DNA of 38,845 nt, taken from Pseudobdellovibrionaceae bacterium. Lineage in GTDB: Bacteria > Bdellovibrionota > Bdellovibrionia > Bdellovibrionales > Bdellovibrionaceae. Below the pieces are notes generated by a model that saw only the letters and a list, made by a program, of their open reading frames with translations, made no database searches and was not told the DNA's origin. Each line of letters begins with the position of its first letter. Position 1 is the first letter of the stretch. The position numbers were made by a program, and so were the translations under genes. The stretch covers positions 1-38,845 of the forward strand of contig JAHBUU010000007.1 in the NCBI GenBank assembly GCA_019637895.1, given 5' to 3'. Shown here one piece after another: positions 16,051-23,842 of the stretch.

Positions 16051-16135
16051 GCGCGGGTGGTGGAATTGGTAGACACGCTGGTCTCAGAAGCCAGTGAGTA
16101 ACATCGTGGGGGTTCAAGTCCCCCCTCGCGCACCA
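16051..16135 (+). tRNA. tRNA-Leu (anticodon CAG)
   Basis: An 85-base tRNA with encoded CCA (16133-16135). The acceptor stem GCGCGGG pairs with CTCGCGC (one wobble). The D region TGGTGGAATTGGTAGACAC is typical, and the anticodon stem CTGGT/GCCAG holds loop CTCAGAA with anticodon CAG. There is a long variable arm, as in class II tRNAs, and the T arm GGGGGTTCAAGTCCCCC. It reads CUG codons. Its 3' end is the insertion site for the recombinase island that starts at 16137. Confidence 0.97.
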
Positions 16136-17796
16136 ATCGTAACAGTGGTCGAACCGCCACGGGTTGCGAGGGATAGATTTCGAGGTTCACAATCACTAAA
16201 TTTTGAGTTTTTGGGGTTTCCGGTACTGGAATCAGTTCCGGTCGCCTTGTATTGGGTTGGAGGCAGGGTGGGCGCTTTTAAGCCCACTCTGATCTTGGTT
16301 GGATGGATTTCGGCGAACTCGATGAGATTCGAGTAAAGAGGCCGACGGTTTTCCGTTGGCGTTTCCTCAAGCCGAGAAATCGTGGATCTCAGTTTTTCAA
16401 TCAACCCCATTTTATCAATGGCCTGACCTTTAAGGCTTGTCGATTTCGACAAAAGATCCTTTCGCAAATTTTCAAACTCAACGACCTTTTTATTTAACTC
16501 CTGAATTTGGCTGTAGAAGCCATCCGCAGGAACTTCCGGTGGTAGTTCTGAAACCCTTGTCACCAAATTCTGCGAACGTCTTTTCTTCTGCTCAATTTCA
16601 CTTTCAATCGTTTTGATCCTTCCCTCTAGGGCCGGGATTTCCGAATGATTTGATGTCGCATAGACCTCAAGCCACCTTTCGATAAGATCCGGCGTTTGCA
16701 GAAGATCCTTAATACTTTTAATCAAAATGTCTTCCATACGTTCGGCTCTTACGGTTTCCACACGGCATCGTTTGTGTTGGCTTACACCATCGCTATGGAG
16801 CTGTCTTGGATGGGCATAGTAGTGATGCTTTCGGTTTTTACCGTGAGCGGACTTTCCACCTAGCTTTTTACCGCACTCGCCGCAGACAAGTCGCTCCGTC
16901 AGCGGATAGGGATACTTTTTCCACTCATCGGGCTTGTGCTTATTTTTATTGGCAGCCAATTTCTTTTGAACCTTCTCAAATAATTTTTTGTCTACAATGG
17001 CGCTCCAGCTCGCTGGGACGACTTCGACCTCATTCTTCGACTTATTGATCTCTCTTAGTCCAATGTAAGCGCGATTCGTCAGAATCCGAAAAAGACTTGG
17101 TACAGTGAAATGACCACCACCTTTTTCGATCCCATGCTTGTTGGTGTAGCGTTTGGAAAACACACCTCGACGAGACATCTCACGGCACGTTTCGCGGACT
17201 GACCCTACTTCCAAGAAGGTTTTAAAAATTTCTGTGACTGTCTTCGCTTCAGTTTCATTCGGCAGTAGTTCGCCAGGACTTTTTGGATTGCGATCAAATC
17301 CTAGCGGTATGCTTCCGCCATTCCAAAGACCACGTTTTGCACGAGCTGCCCAGTTTGCAGAAATGCGTTCCGCAGTTTGCTTGCGTTCGTACTGCGCGAA
17401 GTTCATCAAGTTAAAGACCATCATTTCGCCCGCCGCAGTCGTCGTGTCGAACTGCTCGCGAAGGGTGATGAATCCCGTGTCGTGCTTTTTAAATAAATCC
17501 CATACTTCGCAGAAGTCTTTCAAAGACCTGGAAAGTCGTGACAGCTCGGTTGATAAAATCAAGTTGATGCGCCCAAGTTTTATGTCCGTCAGTAACCGCT
17601 GGAACTCCGGTCGGTTCATATCCTTTGCGGACTTATCATCGCAGTAAAAGTCCACGATAACGCCCCAACTGGAGTCTCTACGATTTTGTCCGTCCACGTA
17701 TTCAATGAGTCGTTGGCGCTGACTGACCAAGGAGCCGTCCTGGATACGAGCTTGTTCTTCCGTACTAACGCGAAGATAAATACCGATTCGTTTCAT
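16114..17796 (-). CDS. Large serine recombinase (site-specific integrase), 560 aa
   Basis: An N-terminal resolvase domain has the nucleophile Ser11 in YLRVSTEEQ and the ...LSRSLKDF and LMNFAQYERKQTAERI segments. A recombinase domain, a zinc-ribbon-like CGECGKKLGG...HHYYAH...HKRC, and a coiled-coil (about 405-505) follow. This is the plan of integrases that insert phages or islands at fixed sites. The stop (TGA, 16116-16114) lies inside tRNA-Leu: the last residues (about IGARGGT) are read from the tRNA 3' end. The C-terminal codons would differ in the excised circle. The gene begins one base before the stop of a 64-residue protein (TAATG overlap), so they form an operon. Confidence 0.93.
   Translation of the reverse strand: MKRIGIYLRVSTEEQARIQDGSLVSQRQRLIEYVDGQNRRDSSWGVIVDFYCDDKSAKDMNRPEFQRLLTDIKLGRINLILSTELSRLSRSLKDFCEVWDLFKKHDTGFITLREQFDTTTAAGEMMVFNLMNFAQYERKQTAERISANWAARAKRGLWNGGSIPLGFDRNPKSPGELLPNETEAKTVTEIFKTFLEVGSVRETCREMSRRGVFSKRYTNKHGIEKGGGHFTVPSLFRILTNRAYIGLREINKSKNEVEVVPASWSAIVDKKLFEKVQKKLAANKNKHKPDEWKKYPYPLTERLVCGECGKKLGGKSAHGKNRKHHYYAHPRQLHSDGVSQHKRCRVETVRAERMEDILIKSIKDLLQTPDLIERWLEVYATSNHSEIPALEGRIKTIESEIEQKKRRSQNLVTRVSELPPEVPADGFYSQIQELNKKVVEFENLRKDLLSKSTSLKGQAIDKMGLIEKLRSTISRLEETPTENRRPLYSNLIEFAEIHPTKIRVGLKAPTLPPTQYKATGTDSSTGNPKNSKFSDCEPRNLSLATRGGSTTVTIGARGGT
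16125..16136 (+). repeat. Left attachment core (attL) in the tRNA-Leu 3' end
   Basis: CTCGCGCACCAA covers the tRNA acceptor strand, CCA end and one further base. The same 12 bases occur at 23074-23085, 6949 bases away, in the same orientation. This spacing brackets the recombinase and its cargo, as expected for cores made by integration into a tRNA. The core's exact edge is uncertain because flanking bases differ. Confidence 0.7.
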
Positions 17797-18492: not shown

Positions 18493-18774
18493 ATGGCCAA
18501 AGGGAAGAAGCACACACCGGAGTCAATCGTGAAGATCCTCCGAGACATCGAAATCGAACAGGGACGAGGCGCCAGCCAGGAAGAGGCTTGCAAGAAATCC
18601 AGCATCACTTTGCAGACCTTCTACCGCTGGCGGAAAGAGTTCGGAGGCCTTCAGATCGACCAGGCAAGACGACTGAAAGAGCTTGAGAATGAGAATCTCA
18701 AGCTCAAGAAGCTGGTCGCAGACCTTGCTCTTGATAACTCCATTTTGAAAGAAGTGAACAAGGGAAACTTCTAA
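18493..18774 (+). CDS. IS3-family transposase OrfA, 93 aa
   Basis: The protein opens with a basic helix-turn-helix region (KILRDIEIEQGRGASQEEACKK...ITLQTFYRWRKEFGG) that binds the element ends. It continues as a leucine-heptad coiled coil (RLKELENENLKLKKLVADLALDNSILKEV) used for dimerisation. AAAGGG lies about eight bases before ATG. Near its end the reading frame holds the heptamer G GGA AAC (18762-18768), a canonical -1 slippery site only a few bases before the TAA. Slippage there would join it to OrfB. Codons are as expected for an IS. Confidence 0.92.
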   Translation: MAKGKKHTPESIVKILRDIEIEQGRGASQEEACKKSSITLQTFYRWRKEFGGLQIDQARRLKELENENLKLKKLVADLALDNSILKEVNKGNF

Positions 18775-19634
18775 GCCCGTCGAGAAAGCGCGAAGCGGTC
18801 GAGTTTGCGATCGAAAGATTCGGGATCTCGGAACGACGGGCGTGCGGACTCTTAAGTCAGAATCGCAGAACTCAGCGTTACACGGTTCAATTCTCACCAG
18901 AAGAGGATCGTTTAACAAGAGACATCATTGAGCTTGCAAGCACTCATGGTCGCTATGGCTACCGTAGGATCACGGCTCTTCTGAGGGATGCGGGCTGGCG
19001 AGTGAACCGTAAGCGCGTCCAAAGGATCTGGAGACTGCATGGTTTAAGGGTCCCGGGTAAGCAGAAGAAAAGAGCCAGGCTTTGGGATCAAGAACACTCC
19101 TGCATCCGACTTCGCCCGGAAAGAAAGAACCATGTCTGGTCCTATGACTTCGTGATGGATCGAACCAGAAACGGAAGGCCTTTTCGGATGTTCAACGTTA
19201 TCGATGAGTTCACAAGAGAAAGTCTAGCGATCAGAGTGGGACGAAGGCTTCGATCAGAAGATGTGATCGACACTCTCGGAAAACTCTTTGTCGAGCGCGG
19301 AGTTCCGGAGCACGTAAGATCGGACAATGGATCTGAGTTTATCGCAAGTGCGGTGAGGACTTGGTTTAAGAAGCTCAAAGTTCAGCCACTTTTTATTACT
19401 CCGGGGTCTCCATGGGAAAATGGCTATATCGAATCGTTCAATGGAAAGCTCAGAGATGAGCTTCTCAATGGAGAGATATTCAACACACTGAAGGAGGCAG
19501 AGATCATGATCGAGAGATGGCGAAGGCACTACAACACAAAAAGACCGCACAGCTCGCTTGGATACAGACCACCGGCTCCGGAAACTTTTGCACCTACTTC
19601 AAAGCATCTTGAGGTCCGACTAGTCGCAGTGTAA
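18768..19634 (+). CDS. IS3-family transposase OrfB (DDE integrase domain), made by -1 frameshift
   Basis: The frame lies -1 relative to OrfA and opens right at the slippery heptamer, giving LLSPSRKREAVEF, the usual start of OrfB. It lacks a good independent start codon near its beginning; the first GTG in frame is at 19002. The DDE core is visible: Asp in VWSYDF, Asp in HVRSDNGSEF, and Glu in NGYIESFNGKLRDE, followed by a normal C-terminus. Read as OrfAB, the full transposase is about 380 residues. All catalytic residues remain, so the element may be active. Confidence 0.88.
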   Translation, partial: LLSPSRKREAVEFAIERFGISERRACGLLSQNRRTQRYTVQFSPEEDRLTRDIIELASTHGRYGYRRITALLRDAGWRVNRKRVQRIWRLHGLRVPGKQKKRARLWDQEHSCIRLRPERKNHVWSYDFVMDRTRNGRPFRMFNVIDEFTRESLAIRVGRRLRSEDVIDTLGKLFVERGVPEHVRSDNGSEFIASAVRTWFKKLKVQPLFITPGSPWENGYIESFNGKLRDELLNGEIFNTLKEAEIMIERWRRHYNTKRPHSSLGYRPPAPETFAPTSKHLEVRLVAV

Positions 19635-22876: not shown

Positions 22877-23134
22877 TCAATTTCGTCGAGCGGCTTTCTG
22901 GCGGGCAAAGGCCTCACTGCTTCCAATTGTTTCAGCGACCCTTACCCAGGACAGTAGATCCCGGTATAGACCCCGCAATTCAACTCCAGAAAGGATTTTA
23001 GCCTCTGGATAGCACTTGTGCTCAAATATAAACAGCGCAAACGGACAGTCAAGGTGTTCGTCTACTTGTTCGGCTCGCGCACCAAATAAGTTTGGTTCTT
23101 CGGGTTCTTCTCTCTCAGTGGTGGGTTTCAGGTA
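22877..23134 (-). pseudogene. Open frame without start codon spanning the right attachment core
   Basis: On the minus strand 85 codons run open from the base after a TAG to TGA at 22877. The product has protein-like composition (FALFIFEHKCYPEAKIL, GVELRGLYRDLLSWVRV) but no ATG, GTG or TTG near its beginning. It may be the broken C-terminal part of a gene cut by integration; the EHK motif recalls Rpn/PD-(D/E)XK transposases, but this is weak. The frame crosses the core at 23074-23085, so its first residues come from outside the island. In the gap 22768-23235 nothing else coding is supported. Confidence 0.35.
23074..23085 (+). repeat. Right attachment core (attR or inner core of a tandem array)
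   Basis: CTCGCGCACCAA is identical to the tRNA-Leu 3' end and CCA at 16125-16136, with no rest of a tRNA around it. It lies inside a decayed recombinase 3' end homologous to the intact recombinase gene at 16114-17796. Confidence 0.65.
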
Positions 23135-23216
23135 CTAAAGTCAGTTCCGGTTGCCTTGTATTGGATTTCGGCCAGAGTGAGCTTGCTCAATTTCGATATC
23201 TCGAAGGATCTGAAAA
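23086..23216 (-). pseudogene. Decayed 3' end of a second serine recombinase
   Basis: Bases 23123-23181 match 16214-16272, inside the intact recombinase gene, at about 80 percent with one small gap. The minus-strand reading gives QYKATGTDFST before a stop, against QYKATGTDSST in the intact protein. Beyond the stop, NPKNQTYLVREPNK resembles NPKNSKFSDCEPRN. Only the tail of the gene remains and its orientation matches the intact copy, so an older related element was probably integrated here and then lost. It directly follows the right core. Confidence 0.6.
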
Positions 23217-23235
23217 GAGGGCTTCAGATCGGTTT

Positions 23236-23643
23236 TTATTCACAGCTCAGGGAGCCGGTCTCGACCAGTGTTACGCACTCGTGATCCGCACAGGAGTCCG
23301 AGCTTTGTCCGACGATCGCTTTGCAGTTTTGCGATTCACACTGATAGGGATCTCTTTGCACCAGGGCTTTGCAATCCTTTGACATGCACCATTGCGGATT
23401 CATGGCCGTCACGGCTTTGCAATCCCAGGTATCGCAAGTCGCGGCATTATCGAAAACCAAAGCCTTGCAGTCTCCGGATTGACAATCCAGCCACTGACTT
23501 TGCTCGATCCCTCCGCAGTCTTTAAGGGTCAAAGTCGTTTTCATCGTACCCGTCTTCGTCAGCAGGTAGGCGGCGCGATCGATGTAGGTCGCTTGGGCAT
23601 AAACTCCCACGTATAGAATAAGTACCGTGAAAATAAACTTCAT
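23236..23643 (-). CDS. Exported Cys-rich protein with five 16-residue repeats, 135 aa
   Basis: A signal peptide (MKFIFTVLILYVGVYAQA) is followed by a short linker and then a strict 16-residue repeat: CQSGDCKALV..., CDTWDCKAVT..., CMSKDCKALV..., CESQNCKAIV..., CADHECVTLV.... Each unit has the pattern C-x3-[D/N/E]-C-[K/V]-[A/T]-[L/V/I]-[V/T], giving two cysteines per unit. The protein ends CE, as if a sixth unit had been cut. Export and the paired cysteines suggest a disulfide ladder or metal-binding rod. GGAGGGGATTC before ATG supports the start. No family is known to me. It lies at the edge of the island remnants. Confidence 0.8.
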   Translation of the reverse strand: MKFIFTVLILYVGVYAQATYIDRAAYLLTKTGTMKTTLTLKDCGGIEQSQWLDCQSGDCKALVFDNAATCDTWDCKAVTAMNPQWCMSKDCKALVQRDPYQCESQNCKAIVGQSSDSCADHECVTLVETGSLSCE

Positions 23644-23842
23644 GAATCCCCTCCCCCAGAAATCATCATAAGTTTTTTATTCCCGCAGTCAAAAAACCTT
23701 TTCACTCGGACGTCTTCACGGACCTTTCACCGGCTCTTCATCCAGCCTCTTTCCTAAAGTGCCATAATCGGCCCCGAGTGAAGAGAATTCGGCATTCAAC
23801 CGGGGCCTGATCGCCCCAAAACACCATGCAAAGGAGTCAGCT

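Follow-up and report, generated by a model that had tools for sequence, protein, structure and literature searches.

A Bdellovibrionota family of exported two-cysteine repeat proteins with a 16-residue unit and a predicted solenoid fold

A small gene of a Pseudobdellovibrionaceae bacterium, lying near the debris of a mobile element, encodes a protein in which cysteines recur with great regularity. Is this gene a fragment trimmed by the element or an intact member of a family, and what kind of protein could such a repeat build? We have analyzed the whole stretch of DNA that contains it (38,845 nucleotides of contig JAHBUU010000007.1, referred to here as the window). The ORF, at 23236..23643 on the minus strand, encodes 135 aa, with 12 Cys in the mature part, and is preceded by a good Shine-Dalgarno sequence (GGGGGAGGGG). 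Its product begins with MKFIFTVLILYVGVYAQA, a signal-peptide-like N-terminus that agrees with the original prediction of an exported protein. The features of the locus are the following:

23236..23643, minus strand: gene for the 135-aa exported Cys-repeat protein, both ends complete (ORF; a 57% identical homologue of equal length and end)
23587..23643, minus strand: putative signal peptide, about residues 1-19, MKFIFTVLILYVGVYAQAT, with cleavage near AQA (sequence reading)
23518..23586, minus strand: N-terminal cap region, residues 20-42 (YIDRAAYLL...TGT...LKD), conserved with the homologue in genome G056 (alignments)
23239..23520, minus strand: six 16-residue units, the final Cys one residue before the C-terminus (sequence, spacing tests and model)
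23665..23692, minus strand: sigma-70-like promoter match TTGACT-16-TATGAT, upstream of the gene (consensus match only)
23207..23230, plus strand: terminator-like hairpin just past the stop codon, with its T-run on the plus strand (hairpin scan; three found against 2.4 expected in shuffles, not significant)
23122..23178, minus strand: recombinase C-terminal remnant TLAEIQYKATGTDFST*NP, 19 residues with an internal stop, outside the gene (42-45 bp at 87-88% identity to 16214-16258)

The Cys residues are found at positions 43, 54, 59, 70, 75, 86, 91, 102, 107, 118, 123 and 134, with spacings of 11 and 5 that alternate and end in 11, and all 12 occupy only two phases of a period of 16. Not one of 200,000 random placements matched this pattern (the best put nine of the 12 in two phases), which bears out the strict 16-residue, two-Cys repeat proposed previously. 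The number of units needs correction, from five to six, once the degenerate first unit C43/C54 (DCGGIEQSQWLDC), which is nevertheless in register, is included. The Cys pairs of the units are then 43-54, 59-70, 75-86, 91-102, 107-118 and 123-134, all of the form Cys(i, i+11). As read from the sequence, the unit is best written as [DNE]-C-[KRV]-[AG]-hydrophobics-...-C, with a linker of three residues after it; the sixth and last copy is ECVTLVETGSLSC, followed by a single Glu. When the repeat is phased so that it opens at [DNE]C and closes at the following Cys, the terminal CE that had been taken for the start of a further unit closes unit six instead.

The suspicion that a mobile element had deleted the 3' end of the gene, together with further units, came from the recombinase debris and from the position of the last Cys, only one residue from the end of the protein. 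The closest relative in a search of 100 genomes (the window's own and its relatives), that of G056, which belongs to the same family and to a different genus (g6), has 135 aa and 57% identity along its length. The C-termini of both proteins align at the identical column (...LSCE* in the window, ...LVCR* in G056), and homologues stopping at the same point were precisely what the original prediction had named as evidence against trimming. Another relative, in G013, terminates ...ARYCH*, and in 17 of the 17 relatives compared, with 5-9 units, the unit-closing Cys is followed by 1-7 residues before the protein ends. The remnant itself is real, but it lies outside the gene: about 57 bp separate its end at 23178 from the stop codon, and the terminator-like hairpin falls within this gap. 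Taken together, the homologue ends, the distance of the debris and the hairpin in between argue that the terminal CE, with the Cys that closes unit six, is where the protein naturally ends; truncation, ruled out by the homologue ends, keeps a negligible probability. The differences from the G056 homologue fall 41/29/76 on codon positions 1/2/3 over 115 codons (dS is saturated), a pattern that indicates purifying selection on a real gene.

In the same 100 genomes, nine scored, including the window's own. The search for the repeat across Bdellovibrionota that the original prediction had proposed found profile matches in 20 of 369 genomes, the 20 belonging to 10 genera. The repeat gene is missing from G001, the one further genome of the window's genus, and from most genomes of g6, a genus that includes a Bdellovibrio sp. 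MAG and provided two matches. A scan of GTDB contigs retrieved nothing with the window protein as a single query; with a three-row repeat alignment it retrieved three loci, in a Bdellovibrio sp. MAG, a Bdellovibrionaceae UBA2466 MAG and an Oligoflexales MAG (an order of Bdellovibrionota), the scan reaching close matches only, which bears on the range outside the phylum. No relative appeared among the viral contigs, phages or plasmids searched. The range of the family is patchy and, as found so far, confined to Bdellovibrionota.

The window protein and its relatives share a signal peptide or lipobox, at least five units of C-x10-C with a short linker and a closing Cys at the end. Across 17 proteins, 102 of 106 modules have an internal spacing of 11, whereas the linkers vary (mostly 5, also 4, 6, 7 and 11), and the Cys count of the array is always even (10, 12, 14 or 16 in 17/17). 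The conserved positions other than Cys are a D/N before the first Cys and a K/R and an A after it. The number of units goes from 5, as in a relative of 112 aa, to 9, and the gene of the relative with nine (Bdellovibrio sp. MAG_58, G230; L036:1504-2124, minus strand) contains a tandem DNA array of 48 bp, with matches of 74-81%. Both observations suggest that the arrays have changed size in recent evolution.

That the protein belongs to no known family, as had been claimed, held up: searches of Pfam, NCBIfam and PHROG gave it no significant match, and PDB sequences gave none either as a single query or as a profile. No Pfam or NCBIfam family was hit by two or more of 19 members. YdjO (PF14169) was rejected, as it appeared in one of the 19, with a best stretch of 20 residues of a highly repetitive protein, short of a family-wide whole-domain match; NF041682 (NCBIfam), also seen in a single member, was set aside. 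Our search of the literature found no description of the 16-residue two-Cys repeat.

AlphaFold gave a pLDDT of 89.1 and a pTM of 0.81 for the window protein (9-row alignment), and 90.5 and 0.79 for a seven-unit relative from G271 (19 rows), with pLDDT values of 92-98 over the repeats in both. In the coil common to the two models, a helix of 8 residues starts immediately ahead of [DN]C; two residues of turn, a helical turn of three residues and a linker of three follow, and the pattern then repeats. In the window protein the helix of the N-terminal cap is modeled up to residue 30, and the pLDDT over the predicted signal peptide is low (61-68), as expected where the signal is cleaved. The lower-ranked of the five AlphaFold models were poorer (the worst 38 and 47), so that the solenoid is to be taken as a good prediction and not as a fact. 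Foldseek searches of PDB with the two models gave no match (best E values of 6.3 and 2.6, cut-off E <= 0.001), and the window model found none among viral models either. We consider it possible, at a little below an even chance, that the 16-residue unit is an undescribed repeat, a minimal alpha/3-10 disulfide-stapled solenoid with no solved counterpart, to which Bdellovibrionota would give a binding role, either in the envelope or extracellularly.

The variation within the family bears on how the Cys may be paired. The even counts, the closing C-terminal Cys and the constant module with variable linkers argue for one bond per unit, from i to i+11. On the other hand, the G230 protein has one unit junction in which both Cys are replaced (A....V), with the loss of exactly one C-x4-C pair, which fits i,i+5 bonds between units better than i,i+11 bonds within them. 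As for the machinery, the window's genome encodes a VKOR + Thioredoxin_4 fusion (412-aa ORF, G000:C11:1772-2887), and equivalent fusions are found in G056, G230, G013 and G029, all of them carriers of the family; DsbB was seen in only one of these five genomes. Most likely, the Cys are oxidized in the periplasm to form one disulfide per unit.

The reading that we favor, with somewhat better than even confidence, is that the gene is an intact member of an exported Bdellovibrionota family whose product would be a solenoid with one disulfide per unit, a rod that would serve for binding or as a scaffold, whether in the envelope or after secretion. A short N-terminal cap, preceded by a signal peptide or lipobox, leads into 5-9 copies of the 16-residue two-Cys unit. 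In each copy the predicted helix spans 8 residues, around [DN]C[KR]A[LIV][LIV]xx; a turn, frequently N/D-P, and a helical turn of three residues come next, and C-x-[ST]-x forms the linker. Stacked on one another, the copies may build a short one-layer solenoid. The VKOR and thioredoxin-like pathway would oxidize the Cys in the periplasm, one disulfide per unit, and the C-terminal Cys would close the array. The product is likely to be a stable, protease-resistant rod, either free in the periplasm or outside the cell or, in a related genus, anchored as a lipoprotein, with variable surface positions that could bind a partner. If this is true, few known helical solenoids would have a smaller unit, and so short and regular a repeat, with its conserved Cys pair, would lend itself naturally to use as a design scaffold. 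The sequences define an unnamed and easily recognized exported family of Bdellovibrionota, and their small size (110-160 residues) makes disulfides and fold directly testable.

Redox, metal and prey-directed functions are less likely. Genomic context provides little help overall, since the neighboring genes are not conserved across the family and a BON neighbor gene gave no useful synteny on search. The main contextual hint concerns a thiol/redox buffer, in which the Cys array would cycle between thiol and disulfide and so take up envelope oxidants or mixed disulfides. The very high Cys content would suit this function, and in one genus (G282, G286, G287) the repeat gene comes directly after a gene for a peroxidase of the Redoxin/AhpC-TSA family, at some 9-15 bp from the stop codon of the latter (L055:7499-8341, plus strand; L053:1705-2559, minus; L037:187-1046, minus). 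This link is, however, confined to that genus, and although a DUF899 thioredoxin-like gene is found about 470 bp from the window gene, element debris lies in between. The strict 16-residue architecture, the conserved positions other than Cys and the confidently predicted solenoid point rather to structural Cys, and we regard a redox buffer as unlikely. A still weaker candidate is a metal-binding envelope protein (metallothionein-like or zinc-structured) holding a metal per unit through two Cys and an acidic residue. Each unit does have two regularly spaced Cys, the first usually after Asp or Asn, and one member gave scattered matches to zinc-protein models, mostly below the cut-off. The repeats, though, contain no CxxC or CxC pairs and almost no His, no Pfam or NCBIfam family recurs in the members, and exported Cys would normally be oxidized in a cell with a VKOR and thioredoxin-like system.

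The third candidate, to which we attribute about the same low probability as to the redox buffer, is a secreted factor directed at prey or competitors, a disulfide rod that binds or inhibits something in another cell. Export, a range so far restricted to the phylum of Bdellovibrio, the patchy distribution and the changing number of repeats are all compatible with it. Against it, most genomes of g6, the genus of a Bdellovibrio sp. MAG, do without the gene, no toxin or secretion neighborhood was recognized, and the protein is probably tethered as a lipoprotein in genus g5, as lipobox-type relatives are present in all six g5 genomes. In the g5 genome read in detail, the repeat gene has an ABC-transporter pair on one side and a prepilin-peptidase-like gene on the other, with similar ORF sizes and order in two further g5 genomes. 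The binding or scaffold rod remains our preferred reading.

Among described systems, the closest in kind are the Hcp/Sel1-like repeats (PF08238). HcpB and HcpC are exported helical-repeat solenoid proteins with repeats locked by disulfides; their units, usually of 36-38 residues, have two helices each, and the disulfide links every repeat, at its end, with the beginning of the following one (PMC3851747). The likeness lies in an exported bacterial helical solenoid locked by disulfides, the fold being predicted and the disulfides putative in our case. The window protein differs in its period of 16, with one 8-residue helix and a helical turn, and neither it nor any of the 19 members matched PF08238. 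Membership in Sel1/Hcp fails on both unit length and profile match; even so, the Cys-16 protein may well act much as they do, through a helical solenoid held together by disulfides.

Two other repeat proteins resemble it in some aspect. CagY of the Helicobacter pylori cag type IV secretion system is a very large protein with much longer modules, and no sequence or fold match between it and the Cys-16 protein was found. It shares tandem arrays of alpha-helical modules in an exported protein (PMC2581425). Bacterial ice nucleation proteins have sixteen-residue tandem repeats forming a solenoid (PMC9418140), which is the same repeat length in bacteria; theirs is a beta-solenoid with outward Thr/Tyr arrays, in contrast to the predicted helical, Cys-based Cys-16 protein.

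The window also carries recognizable mobile elements. A 560-aa large serine recombinase, read from its translation, is encoded at 16114-17796 (minus strand), and 42-45 bp from its 3' region are found again at 23123-23167, which suggests a second, decayed element of the same kind there. Judged from translations, there is also an IS3-type transposase pair at 18493-19634 (plus strand), a short helix-turn-helix ORF and an integrase-core ORF.
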